Source: Klebsiella pneumoniae (GTDB lineage: Bacteria; Myxococcota_A; UBA796; GCA-2862545). Taken from it: a stretch of DNA of 34,692 nucleotides. Positions 302-31,464 of this stretch are shown piece after piece. Positions within the stretch are counted from its first letter, which is position 1. Each line of letters starts with the position of its first letter. The stretch covers positions 1-34,692 of the forward strand of contig CAMCWU010000006.1 in NCBI GenBank assembly GCA_945882675.1, given 5' to 3'. The notes under the pieces are model-generated. The model was not told the DNA's origin. It did not search any database and saw only the letters and a program-made list of their open reading frames with translations. A program made the translations under genes and the position numbers.

Positions 302-1057
302 TCAGGCGGTGGGCGTTTCGAGCTTGTACAGCCAGTGGGCGGCGCCGCCGCGCTCGGCCGCCGCGTGCATCTCGCGGGTGCGGACCTGGAACTCTGCCGC
401 GTTCGGGCGCCCCGCCGCGTACACGGCGGTGTGGAGCGACCGGTAGCCGTTCGCCTTCGGAGCGCGGATGTAGTCATCGAGCTCGCCTGGGATCGCCACG
501 TGCCGACCGTGGATCAGCGCCAGCACGTCGTCGCACTCCCCGATCGTGCTGACGACGACCCGGAGCGCCACGCGGTCGAAGATCCCGTCGGCGTCCCGCC
601 CTTTCTTCGCCATCTTCCGCCAGGTCGAGTACGCGGACTTCACCCGGCCGGTCACCACGCCGTCGATGCCGTGGTCCGCGAGCAGCCCCCGCGTGTCGTC
701 CGCGAGCCGCTCCAGCAACGCGGCCGCCATCGGCTCGACCGCCTGGAGCTCGGCGTACCGGACCGGCTCCAGCACGCGGAAGCTCGCCTCTTCCAGGGAG
801 GCGCGCCGGTCGCCCAGCCCCCGCCGCTCGGCCAGCGGCGCGAGCACCGCCAGCGTCTCGGTCGCGAGGGTCGAGTCCGGCCGCAGCGCGAGCGAGCCCA
901 CGCGGACGTCGAGCGCCGCGGCGAGGGCGTCCGCGTCCGGAAAGACGGCCGCCATCGCTTCGATTCCGGCGGTAGTGCCGAGCTCCGACACGGCGTCGAC
1001 GCCGAGTTGGGCGCTGTCGAAGAGGGAGGCGAGGAGGAGGGATCGCCAGGCGGTCAT
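302..1057 (-). CDS. RelA/SpoT-type (p)ppGpp synthetase domain protein, short form without an intact HD hydrolase or TGS/ACT domains
   Basis: Motifs LAPLAERRGL, KSAYSTWRKMAKKG, FDRVALRVVV, DDYIRAPKANGYRSLHTAVY and EFQVRTREMHAAAERGGAAHWLYK match the RelA/SpoT synthetase domain. The protein is only 251 aa. Confidence 0.85.
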   Translation of the reverse strand: MTAWRSLLLASLFDSAQLGVDAVSELGTTAGIEAMAAVFPDADALAAALDVRVGSLALRPDSTLATETLAVLAPLAERRGLGDRRASLEEASFRVLEPVRYAELQAVEPMAAALLERLADDTRGLLADHGIDGVVTGRVKSAYSTWRKMAKKGRDADGIFDRVALRVVVSTIGECDDVLALIHGRHVAIPGELDDYIRAPKANGYRSLHTAVYAAGRPNAAEFQVRTREMHAAAERGGAAHWLYKLETPTA

Positions 1058-20969: not shown

Positions 20970-21341
20970 ATGCGTGACATCATCCTGCTCGTCGATGACG
21001 AGGTCGATCTGGTCTCGGTCCTCGCAGAGGTCCTCTCGGCCTCGTGCCCGGCGTACGAGGTCCGCGTGGCCTCGTCCTACGACGACGCGGAGGCCGAGCT
21101 CGACCGTCTCGGGGGCGCGCGGCTCGCGCTGCTCGTGGCGGACCACCGGATGGGCGGGCGGACGGGGACCGAGCTGATCCAGCAGGCGCGGGCGCGGTTT
21201 CCGGGCGTTCCGGCCATGCTCTTCACGGGTCAGGCCACACCGGAGGCAGAGGCGCAGGCGGTCGCTGCGGGCGCGCGCGTCGTGTGGAAGCCGCTCGAGC
21301 TCACGAAGTGGCTCGGCGTGGTCGAGGAGATGCTGGGCTGA
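20970..21341 (+). CDS. Stand-alone response regulator receiver domain
   Basis: IILLVDDEVDLVSVLAEVL, LLVADHRMGGRTG (phospho-acceptor Asp), AMLFTGQ (Thr), VVWKPLEL (Lys); no output domain. Confidence 0.93.
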   Translation: MRDIILLVDDEVDLVSVLAEVLSASCPAYEVRVASSYDDAEAELDRLGGARLALLVADHRMGGRTGTELIQQARARFPGVPAMLFTGQATPEAEAQAVAAGARVVWKPLELTKWLGVVEEMLG

Positions 21342-21424
21342 CCTCCGTGGTTGTCGCGGTACGCCGGACTCCGTGCCATAGTGGTCGCGAGACGCCGCCC
21401 TCCGGGGTGGTGCTGGGAGCACGC

Positions 21425-23002
21425 ATGCGCGACATCCGACCGATCCTCGTCCTGGCGCTGGCTGGCTGCAGCTCCGATATGAGCAGCGCGGAGGGTGGGT
21501 CCTACGGCTACACCGACGCCACCAGCGGCGGGGACTACGACGCGGACGCCGACACGGACTCGGACGCGGACGCCGACACCCCAGCGCCCGAGACGGAGGA
21601 TGATCGCCTGGGCCTCCCACCGGCGCAGACGGATGTGTACGTGTTCGTCCCGAACCCGGACCGGGACACGGTCACCCGGCTCGACGTCAACACGTTAGAG
21701 GTCCGCACGGCTTCCGTAGGATCGGAGCCGACGATCGTGAAGACCACGCCGGACTGGCGGACCGCGGTGGTGTTCAACCGCGCAGACGACAGCGTCACGA
21801 TCCTCGACGCCGACTCGCTCGAAGGCGAGGACGTGGACGTCCGGGACAACTTCAACCAGATGGTCATGTCGCCGGACGGCGCCTTCGTGGTGCTCTGGCA
21901 CGACATCGCGGCGGAGCAGCCGGACGATCCGCCGGCGGAGGGCCTGCAGTCGTTCAACGAGTGCTCGTTCGTGGACGTCGCGACCGGTGAGCACTTCCCG
22001 ATGGCGGTCGGGTTCAATCCGAAGAACGTCGTCTTCACGCCGGACGGGGATCTGGCTACCGTGATCTCCGACCAGTACCTGGCGGTCGTCGACCTGACGG
22101 TACCGGAGCCCGCGCCGCGGCTGATCGAGATCTCGGAGGACCTGCTCGACCCGCTCGTCGCGGAGGAGGTGGTGATCTCGCCCCAGGGAGAGTTCGCGTT
22201 CGTCCGCCAGTTCGGCGCGACGGACATCCTGGTCGTCGACCTCGAGCGCGAGACCGTCGAGCATGTGCCGGTCGGCTCCAACCCGACCGATCTCGATCTC
22301 ACACCGGACGGTGACACCGCCGCGGTGGTCACGCGCGCGAGCGGTGAGCTCTACCTCCTCGACACGGCGAACCCGTTCGCGCCGGCGGACGTCGTCACGC
22401 TACCGATCGGCTCGGCGTACGGTTCGATCCTGTACGCGCCGACCGGCGAGACCGCCGTGCTCTACGCCACCGCGACGCTCACGGACCGGTACGCCAGCTT
22501 CGACGTGGCGACCAGCGAGATCACCGAGCGGTCGCTCGAGAAGCCCGTCGCCAGCATGGTGATCACGCCGACGGGCGAGTCCATGCTCGTGTTCCACACG
22601 AAGGCGGACGCGGACGGCGCGGACACCTCGTCCCCGTTCTTCGGCGAGTGGGCGCTGACCGTCATCTCGCTAGACGACTTCCGCTCGAACCCACTGCTGC
22701 TCCCCGCCGAGCCGATCGGATACGCCAACGCCAACAACGGCGAGTACGGCTACTTCATCATGGACAGCGTCGACTTCCTCGAGGTCATCGACTACACGAC
22801 GTTGCTGCACGAAGAGATCCCGCTCGCCAGCCCGCCTCTCTACGTGGGCGTGCTGCCGGACCTCGATCTGGGGGACGGCCTCGAGCCGCCTGCCTGGGTC
22901 AGCCAGGAGCACCACCTGGGCCGGATCACGCTCTACGATCCGGTCACCGGCGAGACCGACACCATCACGGGCTTCGAGCTCAACTCCGCGATCGAGGACT
23001 GA
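21425..23002 (+). CDS. Lipoprotein with YVTN-type beta-propeller repeats
   Basis: MRDIRPILVLALAGC|SSD lipobox, Asp/Thr-rich linker, then repeats such as VPVGSNPTDLDLTPDGDTAAVVTRASGELYLLDTANP. Confidence 0.8.
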   Translation: MRDIRPILVLALAGCSSDMSSAEGGSYGYTDATSGGDYDADADTDSDADADTPAPETEDDRLGLPPAQTDVYVFVPNPDRDTVTRLDVNTLEVRTASVGSEPTIVKTTPDWRTAVVFNRADDSVTILDADSLEGEDVDVRDNFNQMVMSPDGAFVVLWHDIAAEQPDDPPAEGLQSFNECSFVDVATGEHFPMAVGFNPKNVVFTPDGDLATVISDQYLAVVDLTVPEPAPRLIEISEDLLDPLVAEEVVISPQGEFAFVRQFGATDILVVDLERETVEHVPVGSNPTDLDLTPDGDTAAVVTRASGELYLLDTANPFAPADVVTLPIGSAYGSILYAPTGETAVLYATATLTDRYASFDVATSEITERSLEKPVASMVITPTGESMLVFHTKADADGADTSSPFFGEWALTVISLDDFRSNPLLLPAEPIGYANANNGEYGYFIMDSVDFLEVIDYTTLLHEEIPLASPPLYVGVLPDLDLGDGLEPPAWVSQEHHLGRITLYDPVTGETDTITGFELNSAIED

Positions 23003-23003
23003 T

Positions 23004-24530
23004 ATGCCGCACCACAACCCCGCGCTCCTCGCCGTCGTGGCGCTCGCGAGCGCATGCGACCCGTGGCGGGCCCCGAACGAGCTCGGCTACGACGGCGGCT
23101 CGCCGCTCTGGTCCCCGGCGTCCGCCGTCGCGCTCACGGACGGCGTGTACGTCCTTTTGCCCGCGACGGGCGGCCTCGTGCGGATCCGTCCGGACGGCAC
23201 GTACGCGGCCGTGGACGTGGGCGATGCGCGCGTGACCCGCCTGGACCGCGGCGCCGACGGCACGACGCTCGTGGCGTTCGTCGAGCGCTACACGTGCGAA
23301 GACGAGGACGTCGTGCGCGTCGACGACTGCGACGGCGAGGAGCTCGACGTCACCCAGAGCCTCGCGGTCGTGCGGGACGGCGCGGTCGGCAGCGAGGTCG
23401 CGCTCGACGCGCCGTTCAACGCGCTCGGGTTCAGCGCGGACGGCCGCTGGGCGTTCGCGTTCTTCGACTTTGACCGGCTCGACCTGTCGGATCTCGGCGT
23501 CGTGAGCCTGAACTCGGTGCTCGCCATCGACCTGCAGAGCGGGGACACCACGCCCGTGTCCGTCGGGTTCGACGCCGATCGCGTGCTGTTCACGTACGAG
23601 GCCTCGGGCGACGCCACCCGAGCTGTCGTGCTCTCGCAGAGCTCGGTGGCCGTGATCGACCTCCTCGGGGCTTCTCCAGCTCGGACCACGACCTTCCCGC
23701 TCACGCTCGACGCCGACGTCGCCGTGACGCCCGCGGACGTGTCGCTCACGCCGGACGGCCAGTTCGCGCTGATCTCGACGACGGGCGGCTCGGATCTGTA
23801 CGCATTGGACCTCGTGAACGAGAGCATCCGCATCGTCGAGCTCGGGGGCACACCGGGGGAGATGGCGACCGATCCCATCCACGACGTCACGCTGCTCACG
23901 TACACTTCCGGCCCGTTCGCCGTGGACGTGCTGGACAACCAGAGCTTCGAGATCACCCGGTACGACCTCGAGGAGCGCACGGACCGCGTCGAGATCGCGG
24001 AAGGCGCGCCGTTCGCCCTGCTGTGGGGCGAGGGCGTGCGGGACCTCTACCGCCTCGACCTCGACGACGGGGACATCACCGAGTACCGCCTGGTGGGCGG
24101 CGCGGAGAGCGTGTCCATCGTGCCGGGGGGGCAGGTGGCGGTGGTCACGACGTCCGCGGGCGTCGGCGGAACCGCGGGGATGGAGCTGCTCGATCTGCTC
24201 GGGGACGACACGGCGCCGTACTCGCTCGAGGGCGCGGCGGTCGGCGTCGCGTTCACGGAGGTGCCGGCCGGGACGGACGTGCTGCTCCTTCAGGACGGGA
24301 TCGACTATCTGTTCCGCTTGAACCTCGGTTCGGGCCTGACGGAGGAGGTCGAGCTCCCGGCCCCCCCGGTCGCCATCGGCGCGGTGCCGGACGGCCCGTT
24401 CTACATCACGCACACGACAGGGACGGGCCTCGTGTCGTTCCTGGGCGCCGACGGGGAGCTGACGACGGCGTCCGGCTTCGGCACGATCGGCCTGCTCGAC
24501 ACGCTGAACGTCACGCGGGAGGGGAAGTGA
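23004..24530 (+). CDS. Second beta-propeller lipoprotein, likely paralogous to the upstream gene
   Basis: MPHHNPALLAVVALASAC|DPW lipobox; repeats VAVTPADVSLTPDGQFALISTTGGSDLYALDLVNESIRIVELGGTPGEMATDP. Confidence 0.78.
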   Translation: MPHHNPALLAVVALASACDPWRAPNELGYDGGSPLWSPASAVALTDGVYVLLPATGGLVRIRPDGTYAAVDVGDARVTRLDRGADGTTLVAFVERYTCEDEDVVRVDDCDGEELDVTQSLAVVRDGAVGSEVALDAPFNALGFSADGRWAFAFFDFDRLDLSDLGVVSLNSVLAIDLQSGDTTPVSVGFDADRVLFTYEASGDATRAVVLSQSSVAVIDLLGASPARTTTFPLTLDADVAVTPADVSLTPDGQFALISTTGGSDLYALDLVNESIRIVELGGTPGEMATDPIHDVTLLTYTSGPFAVDVLDNQSFEITRYDLEERTDRVEIAEGAPFALLWGEGVRDLYRLDLDDGDITEYRLVGGAESVSIVPGGQVAVVTTSAGVGGTAGMELLDLLGDDTAPYSLEGAAVGVAFTEVPAGTDVLLLQDGIDYLFRLNLGSGLTEEVELPAPPVAIGAVPDGPFYITHTTGTGLVSFLGADGELTTASGFGTIGLLDTLNVTREGK

Positions 24531-25303
24531 TGCTCCTGGCTCTGACATTCGCCGCCTTCGCCCAGGATCCCGACCCGACCTGGGCCCCCGCACCTCCGGC
24601 CGCACCCGCGGAGCCGGTCGCCCCGGTGGACGCGCCGCCGCCGGTGGTGCCGCCCCCTCCCGCGCCCCCTCCCGCGCCGGAGCCGTGGGTCCGCCCCGTG
24701 CCCGAGCCCCGCGCCGCCCTGGACGACCACTTCGAGGTGAGCGTCGCCCTGGGGTCGATCGGGACCCGCGGCGACGACGTGTCGCTGTTCAACGATGGGA
24801 GCTACCTCGGGAGCAAAGGGCTGCGCGTCGGCTGGCGGCCGGTCCGCAGGCTCGTGGTCTACGGCGACTGGCAGCGCGGCCGTACAGGGAAGGAGCTCGG
24901 CTTCTCGAGCGAGGATGACGCGGGGACGGTCGAGGACGTGGTCGCCACCCTCGTCACGAACCAGGTGGCGCTGGGGGCCCGGGTCGACACGACCGCCCTC
25001 TACGAATGGGTTCGTCCGTACGCCACGATTGCGGCGCTCGGCGTGCAGGGGACGGCGCGGTTCGACGACGATACCGGGGAGCCGGACAGCCCGGGCCAGA
25101 TCGCGCACGGCGGGTTCGCGCCGGGTGGGGTCGCGGCGCTCGGCGTCGCCGGGCGGGTGGCGCCCGTGGCAGAAGTGGACGTCGGCGGACAGGTATGGCT
25201 CGAAATGGGCTACGCCGCGGTGCTCCCGCTGGGGCTCGGGGATCTGGGGCCCATCCGGATGGGTGGGTTCGTGGTCCGATCGGGGCTCGGGCTGGTGTTC
25301 TAG
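24530..25303 (+). CDS. Putative outer-membrane beta-barrel protein with Pro/Ala-rich N-terminal linker
   Basis: TGATG junction with the upstream gene; MLLALTFAAFAQ signal; PAPPAAPAEPVAPVDAPPPVVPPPPAPPPAPEP linker; amphipathic strands ending in ...GGFVVRSGLGLVF (C-terminal Phe). Confidence 0.65.
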   Translation: MLLALTFAAFAQDPDPTWAPAPPAAPAEPVAPVDAPPPVVPPPPAPPPAPEPWVRPVPEPRAALDDHFEVSVALGSIGTRGDDVSLFNDGSYLGSKGLRVGWRPVRRLVVYGDWQRGRTGKELGFSSEDDAGTVEDVVATLVTNQVALGARVDTTALYEWVRPYATIAALGVQGTARFDDDTGEPDSPGQIAHGGFAPGGVAALGVAGRVAPVAEVDVGGQVWLEMGYAAVLPLGLGDLGPIRMGGFVVRSGLGLVF

Positions 25304-26142
25304 GGGGTGGGCTGCGCGGAAGGGGCCACGGGCGTCGCCGCCGGCCCTACCCGCTCGTCGCCCGACCGCATCCGCCGCGCGATGAAGAACACGCAGATCG
25401 CGGACAGGATCAGCGCCCAGTACTGCGCCGGCGTGAAGCCGTAGTAGCGCACATCCGTCGATTCGGGGCGGAGGAAGTCCATCGCGAAGCGCACCGGGCC
25501 GTACACCGCGCCGAGCGTCAGGGTGAGCACCCCGGGGATGAGCTTCCGGCGATCGAGCAGGTTGAACAGGCCGAACATGGACAGCGACCACAGGCCCTCG
25601 TACAGGCCCATGTCGTGGCAGGCGACCTCCTTCCCGTACTCCTTGCACATGCCGTGCACGCCGAGCCAGAAGTTCGTGACCGTCCCCGGGTGATCGTGGG
25701 CGACGAAGCACCCCATCCGGCCGAAGAACCACCCGACGGTCAGCCCGTAGGCCAGGCAGTCGAGGAACAGCCAGACGCTCTTGACCTTCTCCTTGTGGAA
25801 GAACCAGATCGCGATCGGCACGCACACGACGAAGCCGCCCATGCTCGACAGGCCGTGCCAGACCTTGAGGAACTCGATCGGGTTCGCAAGGTAGTTCTCG
25901 GGCTCGTACATCAGCCCGTAGCCGACGTGCCCGCCCACGAACGTGCCGAACACGAGCCAGCCGATGAGGCGGTTGATAATCTCCGGATCGAGGCCCAGGC
26001 GGTTCGCGCGCCCCATGGCGAGCTTGCCGCCCACGATGAAGCCGGTGGCGACGAGCAGCCCGAACCCGTGCAGCGGCAGCGTGAAGTCGCCGATGGGAAT
26101 ATTCAGGACGGGAGGCTCGAACCACGGGATGAGAGGCTTCAC
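25300..26142 (-). CDS. lgt: Prolipoprotein diacylglyceryl transferase
   Basis: GTG at 26142: VKPLIPWFEPPVLNIPIGDFTLPLHGFGLLVATGFIVGGKLAMGRANRLG; GGHVGYGLMYEP; GLSSMGGFV; GRMGCFVAHDHPG; DFLRPE. Confidence 0.93.
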   Translation of the reverse strand: MKPLIPWFEPPVLNIPIGDFTLPLHGFGLLVATGFIVGGKLAMGRANRLGLDPEIINRLIGWLVFGTFVGGHVGYGLMYEPENYLANPIEFLKVWHGLSSMGGFVVCVPIAIWFFHKEKVKSVWLFLDCLAYGLTVGWFFGRMGCFVAHDHPGTVTNFWLGVHGMCKEYGKEVACHDMGLYEGLWSLSMFGLFNLLDRRKLIPGVLTLTLGAVYGPVRFAMDFLRPESTDVRYYGFTPAQYWALILSAICVFFIARRMRSGDERVGPAATPVAPSAQPTP

Positions 26143-26191
26143 GACGGCTCCGGGCTCGACGGATCGAAAGGGGACGACGCGGTCTAACACC

Positions 26192-26221
26192 GTGACCCGG
26201 CGGTGACAGCGGGCGTATACT
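26192..26221 (+). promoter_or_regulatory. Putative sigma70-type promoter for the MglA-like gene
   Basis: GTGACC (26192-26197), 18-nt spacer, TATACT (26216-26221), about 40 nt upstream of the ATG at 26262, in the divergent lgt/MglA-like intergenic region. Confidence 0.4.
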
Positions 26222-26261
26222 GCGGCCACCAGACCCCTCGAGACGGAGCGACCCCGGCGAC

Positions 26262-27470
26262 ATGGCGGTGCTGAACTTCGCGACCCGTGAGATCACCGCC
26301 CGGATCGTCTACTTCGGCGCGAGCGGCGCCGGCTGCAACACGAATGTGCGGCGGCTCTACGACATGGTGCCCACGCGCGAGCGGAGCCGGCTGCACCGCT
26401 TCGGGCCCGCGACGTCGCAGGAGATCAGCTGGTACTTCGACTACGCCCCGGTCGACGCGCTGAACGCCGCGGGGTTCGCGCTCCGCATGCGGGTGTACAG
26501 CCTGCCCGGTGGCATCGAGCTGGCGGCGCACCGGGACGAGGTCCTCGATCAGGTCGACGGCGTGGTCTTCGTGGCCGATCCGCGGCGCGACGCGGCGCAA
26601 GCGAACCTGGACCGGCTGCTCGAGCTCGAGCGGCAGCTGGCGGTGCAGGGCCTCGAGCTGGCGGCCCTCGCGGTGGTGATCCAGGTGAACCGGTCGGACG
26701 AGACCGACGCGCGCGAGCTGGCGGAGGTCGTCTCGGACCTCAACCCTTACGGGTTCCCGGTCGTCTCGGCGGTCGCGTCGAAGGGCGAGGGCGTGGTGGA
26801 GGCGCACCGGGCGGTCACGGAGGCGCTCCAGCAGCGGATCCGGGACGCGTTGTCGGGGAACGACGCCGCGATCACCCTCAGCGCGTTGTACCACCCGACA
26901 TCGGACGCCGACGACGACACGGTGGTCCGCCGCCACTTGGAGGCGATCCGCGAGAAGACCACTTCCCCCGCCGCGCTCCTGGAGGCGACGGAAGACACGG
27001 GCGCGTTCGCAGAGACAGCCGCGACCTTCGAGATCCCGTTCTCTCCTCGAGAGATGGTGTTCGCCCGCCCGATCGAGGTGCTGGGCGCGGACATGGTGGG
27101 CGAGCGGATCGCGGTGCACCTGCTGATGGACCCGGTCGGCGGCGGAGAGCTCCAGCGGATGACCGTGCTGCTCGTGCCGGACGGGGGGCGCGACGGATCG
27201 GAGCCGGCCCTGGTCGGCGCGGCCAAGGGCCCGACATCCGACGCCCGCATCCGGTCCACGTCGTCGCGGCCGCCCGAGCCGGGGCCGGGGGCGTTCCTGC
27301 CGGACGTCGTGGATCTCCCCCTCGAACCCTACGAAGACGACGACGAGGGGGAAGTGACGCTCGTCGACAGGGACGACGACCGGCATCCGGATCTGCCGGG
27401 CTGGGCCTACGGGAGCTTCGGCGTGGGCGCCGGAGTCGTGATCGGCATGCTGCTGGGTTACCTCGTATAG
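26262..27470 (+). CDS. MglA-like small-GTPase-family protein with degenerate P-loop and C-terminal TM anchor
   Basis: ARIVYFGASGAGCNTNVRRLYD aligns with MglA YYGPGxxGKTTNLxxIYD; SWYFDYAPVD, MRVYSLPGG, VDGVVFVADP, VIQVNRSD; C-terminus WAYGSFGVGAGVVIGMLLGYLV. Confidence 0.8.
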   Translation: MAVLNFATREITARIVYFGASGAGCNTNVRRLYDMVPTRERSRLHRFGPATSQEISWYFDYAPVDALNAAGFALRMRVYSLPGGIELAAHRDEVLDQVDGVVFVADPRRDAAQANLDRLLELERQLAVQGLELAALAVVIQVNRSDETDARELAEVVSDLNPYGFPVVSAVASKGEGVVEAHRAVTEALQQRIRDALSGNDAAITLSALYHPTSDADDDTVVRRHLEAIREKTTSPAALLEATEDTGAFAETAATFEIPFSPREMVFARPIEVLGADMVGERIAVHLLMDPVGGGELQRMTVLLVPDGGRDGSEPALVGAAKGPTSDARIRSTSSRPPEPGPGAFLPDVVDLPLEPYEDDDEGEVTLVDRDDDRHPDLPGWAYGSFGVGAGVVIGMLLGYLV

Positions 27471-27486: not shown

Positions 27487-29220
27487 TTGATCCTTTCGTT
27501 CACCGGCGCGCGCTGGGTCGCGGCGGCGGCGGATCCCGAGCGAGTCCGGCGGAACCGCGCCGCGGGCATGGGTGCCGTGTCCGCCCGGATCCTGGCGTCT
27601 CGGGTGGAGGACGAGACGGACGCCGCATCCTGGCTGCGCCCCACGCTCGAGCACCTGCACGACCCTCGCGCCATGCGGAATATGGACGCCGCGGTCGACC
27701 TCGTACAGCGCGCCGTGCGGGATCGCGTGAAGATCCGGATCATCACGGACTACGACGTGGACGGCACGACGTCGTCGCTGATCCTGCAGGCGGCGGTCCG
27801 GCTCCTCGACCGCGAGACGGCGCTCGACTACCACATCCCGAACCGGTTCGGCGAAGGGTACGGGTTCAGCCAGGTCGCGGCGAAGAAGGCGGTGTCCGAC
27901 AAGGTCGGGCTGGTGGTGACCGCGGACATCGGCGTGCGCGACCACGCGTCGGTGGCGCTCGCGCGGGACGGCGGGGCAGACGTGCTGGTGTGCGATCACC
28001 ACCTGCCGGCCGGCGAGTCCGTGCCGCCGGACGCCGTGGTGCTCTGCCCGCCGCAGGACGGGTGCGCGTACCCGAACCGGTCACTCGCCGCGTGTGGTGT
28101 GAGCTTGAAGCTCGCGAACGCGTTGCTGGGCCACCTGCCGCGCTGGGCGCTCTACCAGGCGTCGCTCCTCAAGCTCGCGGCAATCGGGACGGTCGCGGAC
28201 ATGGTGTCGCTGGCCACGCTCGAGAACCGGGCGATCGTGACGCTGGGGTTACAGGGGTTGAACGGGGCGGATCAGTCACCGGGCCTGCGCGCCCTGCTCG
28301 ACGCAGCTGGGCTCGCGCCGGGCGGCGTGCGGGTGTCGGACCTGGGGTTCCGGCTCGGGCCCAGGATCAACGCCGCGGGTCGGCTGTCGGACGCCACGCT
28401 GGTGGTCGAGCTGATGAACGCCCGCGATCTCGACTCCGCGCGCGCGCTCGCCCAGAAGATCGAGGGGTTGAACGCCGAGCGCAAGAGCATCCAGGGTAAG
28501 CTCCAGGAGGAGGCCCTGGCGCGGATCGCGGGGGATCCCGCCCCGTTCGTCGTCGTCGCCGGGGCAGAGGAGGAAGGCTGGCACCGCGGCGTTGTCGGGA
28601 TCGTTGCGAGCAAGGTGAAGGATTCCGTGAACCGGCCGGTCGCTGTGGTCTCGATCCAGGGCGACCACGCGGTCGGCAGCGTTCGGAGCGTGCCCGGGAT
28701 CCACGCCGTCCAGGCGCTGGACTCGGCGCGCGATCTCCTGGTGAAGTACGGGGGGCACCCCATGGCGGCGGGGTTCACCGTGCGGACCGCGGACCTCCCC
28801 GAGCTGGAGCGGCGCCTGGGCGCGTTCGTGGCGTCGGCGGTGGACGTGAGCGCGTGGGTGCCGACGCGGCCGATCGACGCCGAGATCCCCATCGCGGACG
28901 TGGGGGACGCGCTGTTCCGCGAGCTCGACCGGCTCGGGCCGTTCGGCTCGGCGAACGCCACGCCGCTGCTGATGATCCCGCGGGTGCGGCCCTCCCGGAT
29001 CGAAGTGCGCCGCACCAAGACGGATCGGCCGTACGTGCGGTTCCAGGTCACGGACGGCCGCCGCGCGAGCGACGCGACCTGGTGGGACGGCGCGGAGCAC
29101 GCGGACGCGCTGGCGCAGGGCCCGGTGGACCTGCTCGTCCAGCTCGAGGAGAATGTGTGGAACGGGAACCGCTCGATCCGCCTCGACATCCGCGACGTGC
29201 GGGTCAGCCCGTCGGCCTGA
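27487..29220 (+). CDS. recJ: Single-stranded-DNA-specific exonuclease
   Basis: IITDYDVDGTTSSLIL, VCDHHLPAGE (DHH motif), SDLGFRLGPRINAAGRLSDA, GVVGIVASKVK, KYGGHPMAAGFTV. TTG start at 27487. Confidence 0.93.
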   Translation: MILSFTGARWVAAAADPERVRRNRAAGMGAVSARILASRVEDETDAASWLRPTLEHLHDPRAMRNMDAAVDLVQRAVRDRVKIRIITDYDVDGTTSSLILQAAVRLLDRETALDYHIPNRFGEGYGFSQVAAKKAVSDKVGLVVTADIGVRDHASVALARDGGADVLVCDHHLPAGESVPPDAVVLCPPQDGCAYPNRSLAACGVSLKLANALLGHLPRWALYQASLLKLAAIGTVADMVSLATLENRAIVTLGLQGLNGADQSPGLRALLDAAGLAPGGVRVSDLGFRLGPRINAAGRLSDATLVVELMNARDLDSARALAQKIEGLNAERKSIQGKLQEEALARIAGDPAPFVVVAGAEEEGWHRGVVGIVASKVKDSVNRPVAVVSIQGDHAVGSVRSVPGIHAVQALDSARDLLVKYGGHPMAAGFTVRTADLPELERRLGAFVASAVDVSAWVPTRPIDAEIPIADVGDALFRELDRLGPFGSANATPLLMIPRVRPSRIEVRRTKTDRPYVRFQVTDGRRASDATWWDGAEHADALAQGPVDLLVQLEENVWNGNRSIRLDIRDVRVSPSA

Positions 29221-31020: not shown

Positions 31021-31464
31021 ATGGCGCGCTGGGAGATCCGCGAAGTCGGGTTCGGGAAGGGCGTCTTCGCGCGGGACGCGCTGCTCCCGGGTGAGCCCTT
31101 GTTCGCGTACGAAGGGCCCAAGGTCCGGTGGGAGGATGTGCCGGACGCGGAAGCCGCGCACGTGATCAAGTCGGGCGGTCGCTGGGTGATCCCTGGCTCA
31201 CCGGCTCGGTACGTCAACCACGCGTGCGAGCCGAACTGCGACGTCGACGACGACCTGCGGCTCGTCCCGCTGCGGACGATCGCCCCCGGCGAGGAGCTGA
31301 CGATCGACTACCATACTGCCGATCCGGCAGCCATGGCCGCGGATCCGGGCGCGTACTTCTGGGATCCGCGCTGGTCGTTCGACTGCCGGTGCGGGTCGCC
31401 GCGCTGCGTGGGGCGCGTCGACGGATGGCGCATCGTCGCTTTGGGCGAATGTCGCCGGGGTTAA
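31021..31464 (+). CDS. SET domain protein with post-SET-like Cys motif
   Basis: GFGKGVFARDALLPGEPLFAYEG, YVNHACEPNCDV (NHxCxPN), GEELTIDY, FDCRCGSPRCVG (CxCxnC post-SET). Confidence 0.92.
   Translation: MARWEIREVGFGKGVFARDALLPGEPLFAYEGPKVRWEDVPDAEAAHVIKSGGRWVIPGSPARYVNHACEPNCDVDDDLRLVPLRTIAPGEELTIDYHTADPAAMAADPGAYFWDPRWSFDCRCGSPRCVGRVDGWRIVALGECRRG

Follow-up and report, generated by a model that had tools for sequence, protein, structure and literature searches.

A tail-anchored MglA-like protein encoded between lgt and recJ represents a family of putative bacterial pseudo-GTPases

The open reading frame at positions 26262-27470 on the plus strand of the window (the whole 34,692-nucleotide stretch of DNA that was analysed) encodes a 402-amino-acid protein in which a predicted MglA fold is kept, the residues characteristic of an MglA GTP switch are replaced, and a C-terminal transmembrane helix serves as a tail anchor. 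Computational evidence established the residue losses and their fixation across a family of uncultured bacteria that is probably related to the myxobacteria, along with the tail anchor, the retained fold (as a prediction) and purifying selection on the gene. On this basis, we consider the protein to be probably a membrane-tethered, non-switching adaptor with an MglA fold, whose gene arose at its present locus from that of a tail-anchored GTPase.

The boundaries of the reading frame are exact, running from an ATG start codon through a TAG stop codon. Its GC content at the three codon positions (0.75/0.46/0.93) matches that of other genes in the window, and the orthologues share the same start, MA[x]xNFA. 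None of the Pfam or NCBIfam models matched the protein above its cut-off. By contrast with the single-domain format of at most 240 amino acids by which the MglA family is defined, the protein carries a beta module and a transmembrane helix in addition to the G domain, the latter being homologous to MglA over its whole length. A phmmer comparison with solved structures matched residues 1-193 to MglA of Thermus thermophilus (3t12, E 4e-32) and of Myxococcus xanthus (E about 2e-27), and significant matches were to MglA only. In this register residues 25 and 26 correspond to K25 and T26 of M. xanthus MglA, giving the substitutions K25C and T26N. A match of 83% on contig C31 covers 42 bases of the sequence that encodes the acidic linker, and we took it to be fortuitous.

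The MglA-type G domain spans residues 1-196 (26262-26849), as delimited by phmmer matches to 3t12 and 5ymx and by the structural model described below. As the sequence-only reading had pointed out, the P-loop (G1) reads GASGAGCNTN (residues 19-28, 26316-26345), with Lys25 replaced by Cys and Thr26 by Asn while Gly19 and Gly24 are kept, and the G4 motif reads NRSD instead of NKxD (residues 143-146, 26688-26699), with the Lys lost and the Asn and Asp retained. That reading had also listed SLPGG and VDGVVFVADP as kept landmarks; both are present, but it went unnoticed that LPGG, within the G3/switch II sequence YSLPGGIE (residues 79-86, 26496-26519), represents VPGQ without the catalytic switch-II Gln. 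Switch I (residues 46-58, 26397-26435) contains a two-residue insertion relative to canonical MglA, and the ERT sequence providing the Arg-finger/Thr pair has become EIS, with neither residue left. Thus, the protein lacks each of the switch features of a functional MglA GTPase, namely GxxxxGK[T/S], the switch-I Arg finger and Thr, TVPGQ (in Group 1) and NKxD. Judged by sequence, its phosphate and Mg contacts to the nucleotide are lost and its base contacts are kept, and the motif losses together with the predicted MglA fold are the features of a pseudo-GTPase.

This state is not the oddity of one gene. Among 21 sampled genomes of the family an orthologue was found in 20, of which 19 align well and provide the motif counts. 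The P-loop Lys is kept in none of the 19, being replaced by Cys (8), Ser (6), Thr (4) or Val (1), so that the loss of Lys is common to all 19 and the Cys occurs in eight. The switch-II Gln (position 84) is likewise kept in 0/19, as is the G4 Lys (position 144), where His (15), Arg (2) or Gln (2) is found. Switch I is less uniform, with the Arg retained in 10/19 and the Thr in 6/19. Against these losses, G19, G24, P82, R91, D99, N115, N143, D146 and G177 are identical in all 19 sequences. Together with the predicted fold and a transmembrane helix in every member, these counts support the initial proposal of a tail-anchored MglA-like pseudo-GTPase, and extend it by the switch-I and switch-II losses and by family-wide fixation. 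One member (genome G006, L051:4914-5954) has lost the G4 Asn and Asp and most other landmarks, with the glycine-zipper transmembrane tail and the lgt and recJ neighbours kept. The contig of another member (L077, CAMASI010000011.1) was deposited as Klebsiella pneumoniae and is probably a mislabelled metagenome bin.

An AlphaFold2 model built with 23 sequences contains a confident G domain (pLDDT mostly above 90). A helix and a small beta module come next, and an acidic linker without predicted order connects them to the C-terminal helix. In a Foldseek search of the PDB with this model the top 14 matches were all MglA, with target-normalised TM-scores of 0.86-0.93 (0.89-0.93 for MglA-GDP). The model is nearer to MglA-GDP (rmsd 1.5-1.8) than to GTP-bound or MglB-bound forms (1.9-2.5), whereas a Lys-bearing control model fits the GDP-bound and the GTP/MglB-bound forms about equally; since AlphaFold2 models contain no ligands, we gave this comparison no weight. 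The beta module (residues 266-305, 27057-27176, with strands at 268-304) is common to the canonical orthologues, and hhalign aligned it with the C-terminal module of sister families with a probability of 98.3%, indicating homology. The acidic stretch and hydrophobic C-terminal segment recognised from the letters correspond to the disordered linker (residues 306-378, 27177-27395; pLDDT below 50 at 308-358 and 365-374), with a net charge of -11 across the 70 residues preceding the transmembrane helix, and to residues 381-402, up to the stop. The helix itself covers residues 380-401 (27399-27464; pLDDT about 93) and contains a GxxxGxxxG motif that is found in 20/20 family tails, with G387, G391 and G395 invariant. 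In all 20 members only 1-7 residues follow the most hydrophobic 19-residue window, as in a tail anchor, for which a single transmembrane helix at most about 30 residues from the C-terminus is required.

The direction of change is indicated by the genomic locus. In the window the gene is flanked by the divergently oriented lgt (prolipoprotein diacylglyceryl transferase; 25300-26229, minus strand; PF01790, E 4e-36) and by recJ (27487-29220, plus strand; TIGR00644 above cut-off), which begins 16 nucleotides downstream of the stop codon and possibly belongs to the same operon; both served as syntenic markers. Orthologues from sister families within this order (L052-L063, L016, L029-L032, L177-L179) occupy the same locus, with lgt divergent upstream and recJ 0-100 bases downstream, and have the beta module and the tail anchor. 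They differ by reading GPAxSGKTTN, ERT, VPGQ and NKRD, and by a slower evolution of the G domain. That GKT stands in these orthologues, which the sequence-only reading could not see, shows that the P-loop loss is a derived state and no error, and their being tail-anchored as well indicates that the anchor is older than the disappearance of the GTPase motifs. Homologues from another order of this class (G058) have GPASSGKTTN or GPALSGKTTN and a hydrophobic C-terminus; lgt/recJ linkage was not found for them on the stretches read. In the tree a single branch, supported at 100/100, separates all family members without Lys from the other sequences, and this branch kept an SH-aLRT value of 100 when the motif columns were removed. 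The simplest reading is one loss in place in the ancestor of the family, rather than a change in a duplicated copy. A paralogue of a canonical copy in its own genome was ruled out, as the protein is the single match there and shares the lgt/recJ locus with the canonical orthologues. The linkage to lgt and recJ, being present around canonical orthologues too, may be merely positional.

Other genes of the window deserve mention. Upstream of lgt, the region 21044-25300 encodes two beta-propeller-like lipoproteins (21044-23002 and 23004-24530, the latter product without a Pfam match) and a likely outer-membrane protein, and these genes are conserved in the pseudo-GTPase family and in the sister families. 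A stand-alone 147-amino-acid SET-domain protein (31021-31464; PF00856, E 4e-12) adjoins an MsbA-like ABC transporter. The gene at 305-1057 (minus strand) encodes a small protein that contains a RelA/SpoT synthetase domain (PF04607) and is possibly a small alarmone synthetase.

In the pathway that we favour, the ancestor would have been a tail-anchored, MglB-independent MglA-like GTPase encoded between lgt and recJ, and the phosphate/Mg-binding and catalytic residues would have been lost in the common ancestor of the family with the MglA fold being kept. Cycling between GTP and GDP would thereby have been abandoned. The protein is predicted to insert post-translationally into the membrane via its C-terminal glycine-zipper helix, whose GxxxGxxxG motif may mediate oligomerisation, and to display the G domain and the beta module on the cytoplasmic face, held by the flexible acidic linker. 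There they would form a docking surface that is always available to a partner which the ancestor might have bound in a single nucleotide state only. In M. xanthus, the K25A, T26N, N141A, K142A, D144A and Q82A variants of MglA abolished motility and were undetectable as proteins (PMC3000849). Given that these changes leave no detectable MglA, a stable lineage with K25C, T26N and no switch-II Gln implies that the fold has been re-stabilised without ordinary dependence on a nucleotide. Counting against an adaptor, the invariance of Asn143, Asp146 and both P-loop glycines exceeds a purely structural need and would fit a protein that still binds guanine to some degree.

The main rival is an unconventional nucleotide binder (pseudo-GTPase class ii or iii), suggested by the unchanging Asn and Asp of G4 and by an Arg that closes beta4 in sequences without the Lys. 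By this model the base pocket of Asn143, Asp146 and His/Arg144 is kept, Arg108 or main-chain contacts of the P-loop stand in for Lys25, and GDP, GMP or another guanine ligand is bound weakly or without Mg for stability or sensing. Arg108 (26583-26585) is invariant in the family (19/19) and rare in canonical relatives, occurring in 26/27 sequences without Lys versus 8/43 Lys-bearing ones when rows selected by a pattern containing Arg108 (L087-L098) are left out, and human LIC1 offers a precedent as it binds GDP without switching (PMC4359372). However, only 1-2 independent pairs are informative for this association, which loses significance once relatedness is taken into account, and Arg108 is found in Lys-bearing relatives too; we therefore rejected it as a proven compensating residue and retain it as a candidate with suggestive counts. 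Moreover, most of the orthologues have lost Lys25 and Thr26, the latter a ligand of Mg, and changes of the T26N type strongly reduce the GTP affinity of MglA (PMC3000849). We regard unconventional binding as somewhat unlikely; it would account for the retention of N143, D146, G19 and G24 in 19/19 orthologues despite the loss of catalytic residues. A more specific version, in which the pocket was re-tooled by keeping Asn and Asp and gaining Arg108 and His/Arg144, so that the protein, evolved from a GTP switch, would sense a different guanine ligand (GMP, Mg-free GDP or an alarmone) at the membrane, appears quite improbable.

The protein could instead help to regulate a canonical polarity system built on MglA, acting as a decoy or as a heteromeric partner of MglA/MglB, and four family genomes (G010, G015, G019 and G020) do encode, besides the pseudo-GTPase, a short MglA of the canonical type and, close to it, MglB. 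Roadblock/MglB (PF03259) was found in 7/21 family genomes and not found in 14/21, these being mostly fragmented metagenome assemblies of uncultured bacteria in which absence counts hinge on completeness. Restricting the count to the ten genomes at least 90% complete left 7/10 without MglB and 8/10 without another full MglA homologue. Neither MglB, which an MglA/MglB polarity module would include and usually encodes next to mglA, nor another MglA was found in the protein's own genome, an assembly that is 81% complete, and pilT was found in only 3/21 family genomes. Even among the canonical tail-anchored orthologues, MglB is present in 2/22 genomes and absent from the other 20. The scarcity of MglB, a second MglA and pilT indicates that a role as MglA decoy or in the polarity of type IV pili cannot be general. 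The regulator model is thus very unlikely, and the Myxococcus-like polarity role suggested by the sequence-only reading is not supported. The G006 genome contains two Roadblock-domain matches.

A gene with such motif losses might simply be decaying on its way to loss. Such decay could explain the faster evolution of the G domain, whose divergence relative to RecJ has a median ratio of 1.48 in the family versus 0.77 in canonical orthologues (about twofold), and 0.81 versus 0.38 at a matched RecJ distance of 0.4-0.6; the far more degraded G006 member, without a G4 motif, and the G016 genome, without a match, point the same way. By contrast, intact reading frames of the same architecture were found in 20/21 family genomes, with invariant motifs and the tail anchor, and the C-terminal part evolves about equally relative to RecJ in the family and in canonical orthologues (1.53 versus 1.44). 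NG86 estimates of dN/dS for the G domain, crude values obtained at high dS, were 0.18, 0.18, 0.23 and 0.21 for four family pairs versus 0.05, 0.07 and 0.14 for canonical pairs. A dN/dS of about 0.2 combined with a faster G domain points to constraint that has loosened and changed in character, not to neutral decay, and we regard decay as very unlikely. That the P-loop was misread or misassembled was ruled out as practically negligible, because all 19 alignable orthologues, from separate assemblies, lack the Lys, with Cys, Ser, Thr or Val codons in its place, and other motifs are lost too.

A second MglA-like family in the same phylum, of which 33 members were sampled (L092, L093, L095, L141-L170), resembles the protein in combining an MglA G domain with a C-terminal extension (about 280-380 amino acids in total) and in having lost the switch-II Gln, here in 33/33. 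The P-loop Lys is lost in 11/33, with Thr, Val, Ile or Ala instead, and the tree forces at least 4 label changes on supported branches, indicating independent losses and hence that loss of this Lys is recurrent among MglA-like proteins. The second family differs in that no transmembrane tail was seen, the G4 motif is mostly NKxD, and the Lys loss is patchy and repeated, as opposed to one family-wide event.

Compared with the MglA family of M. xanthus and T. thermophilus (Group 1, PMC4316618), the protein shares 31-35% identity in the G domain, the predicted fold, a VPG-type switch II without the Ras Asp, the conserved G4 Asn and Asp, and AxxxGxGV. It departs from that family by lacking the P-loop Lys, the switch-I Arg finger and Thr, the switch-II Gln and the G4 Lys, by the added beta module and transmembrane tail, and by having no coupled MglB. 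The survey by Wuichet and Sogaard-Andersen (2014) included proteins of at most 240 amino acids only, so that tail-anchored members fall outside it; it describes loss of the G4 Lys in both Group 2 and Group 3, one Group 2 protein, CvnD9, having measured GTPase activity, and in the passages covered it makes no mention of P-loop Lys loss (PMC4316618). Eukaryotic pseudo-GTPases such as fungal dynein light intermediate chain (LIC), CENP-M and pG1/pG2 of p190RhoGAP (class i) and Rnd (class ii) likewise keep a Ras fold as a binding platform with the P-loop Lys and switch-II residues replaced (PMC4359372, PMC5593906). In fungal dynein LIC, which also combines a G domain with an effector-binding C-terminal half, Gln replaces the P-loop Lys and the pocket is closed with no nucleotide bound (PMC4359372). 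These proteins are distant and not tail-anchored, whereas in the present family the P-loop glycines and, in G4, Asn and Asp are strictly kept; the non-switching adaptor logic may nevertheless be comparable to that of fungal dynein LIC or CENP-M. Our search of the open-access literature for bacterial or MglA pseudo-GTPases found none within the MglA family. Pseudo-GTPases as such are already known, and what we rate as new here is a tail-anchored one belonging to a Ras-like family of bacteria.

The existence of MglA-like proteins, some of them tail-anchored, in genomes without MglB calls for caution in annotating such proteins as GTPases or polarity proteins. With one gene at one locus that is canonical in sister families and inactive across the family, these bacteria provide a natural before/after experiment for the apparent conversion of a GTP switch into a scaffold, and a second family in the same phylum that repeatedly loses the same lysine adds to this case.
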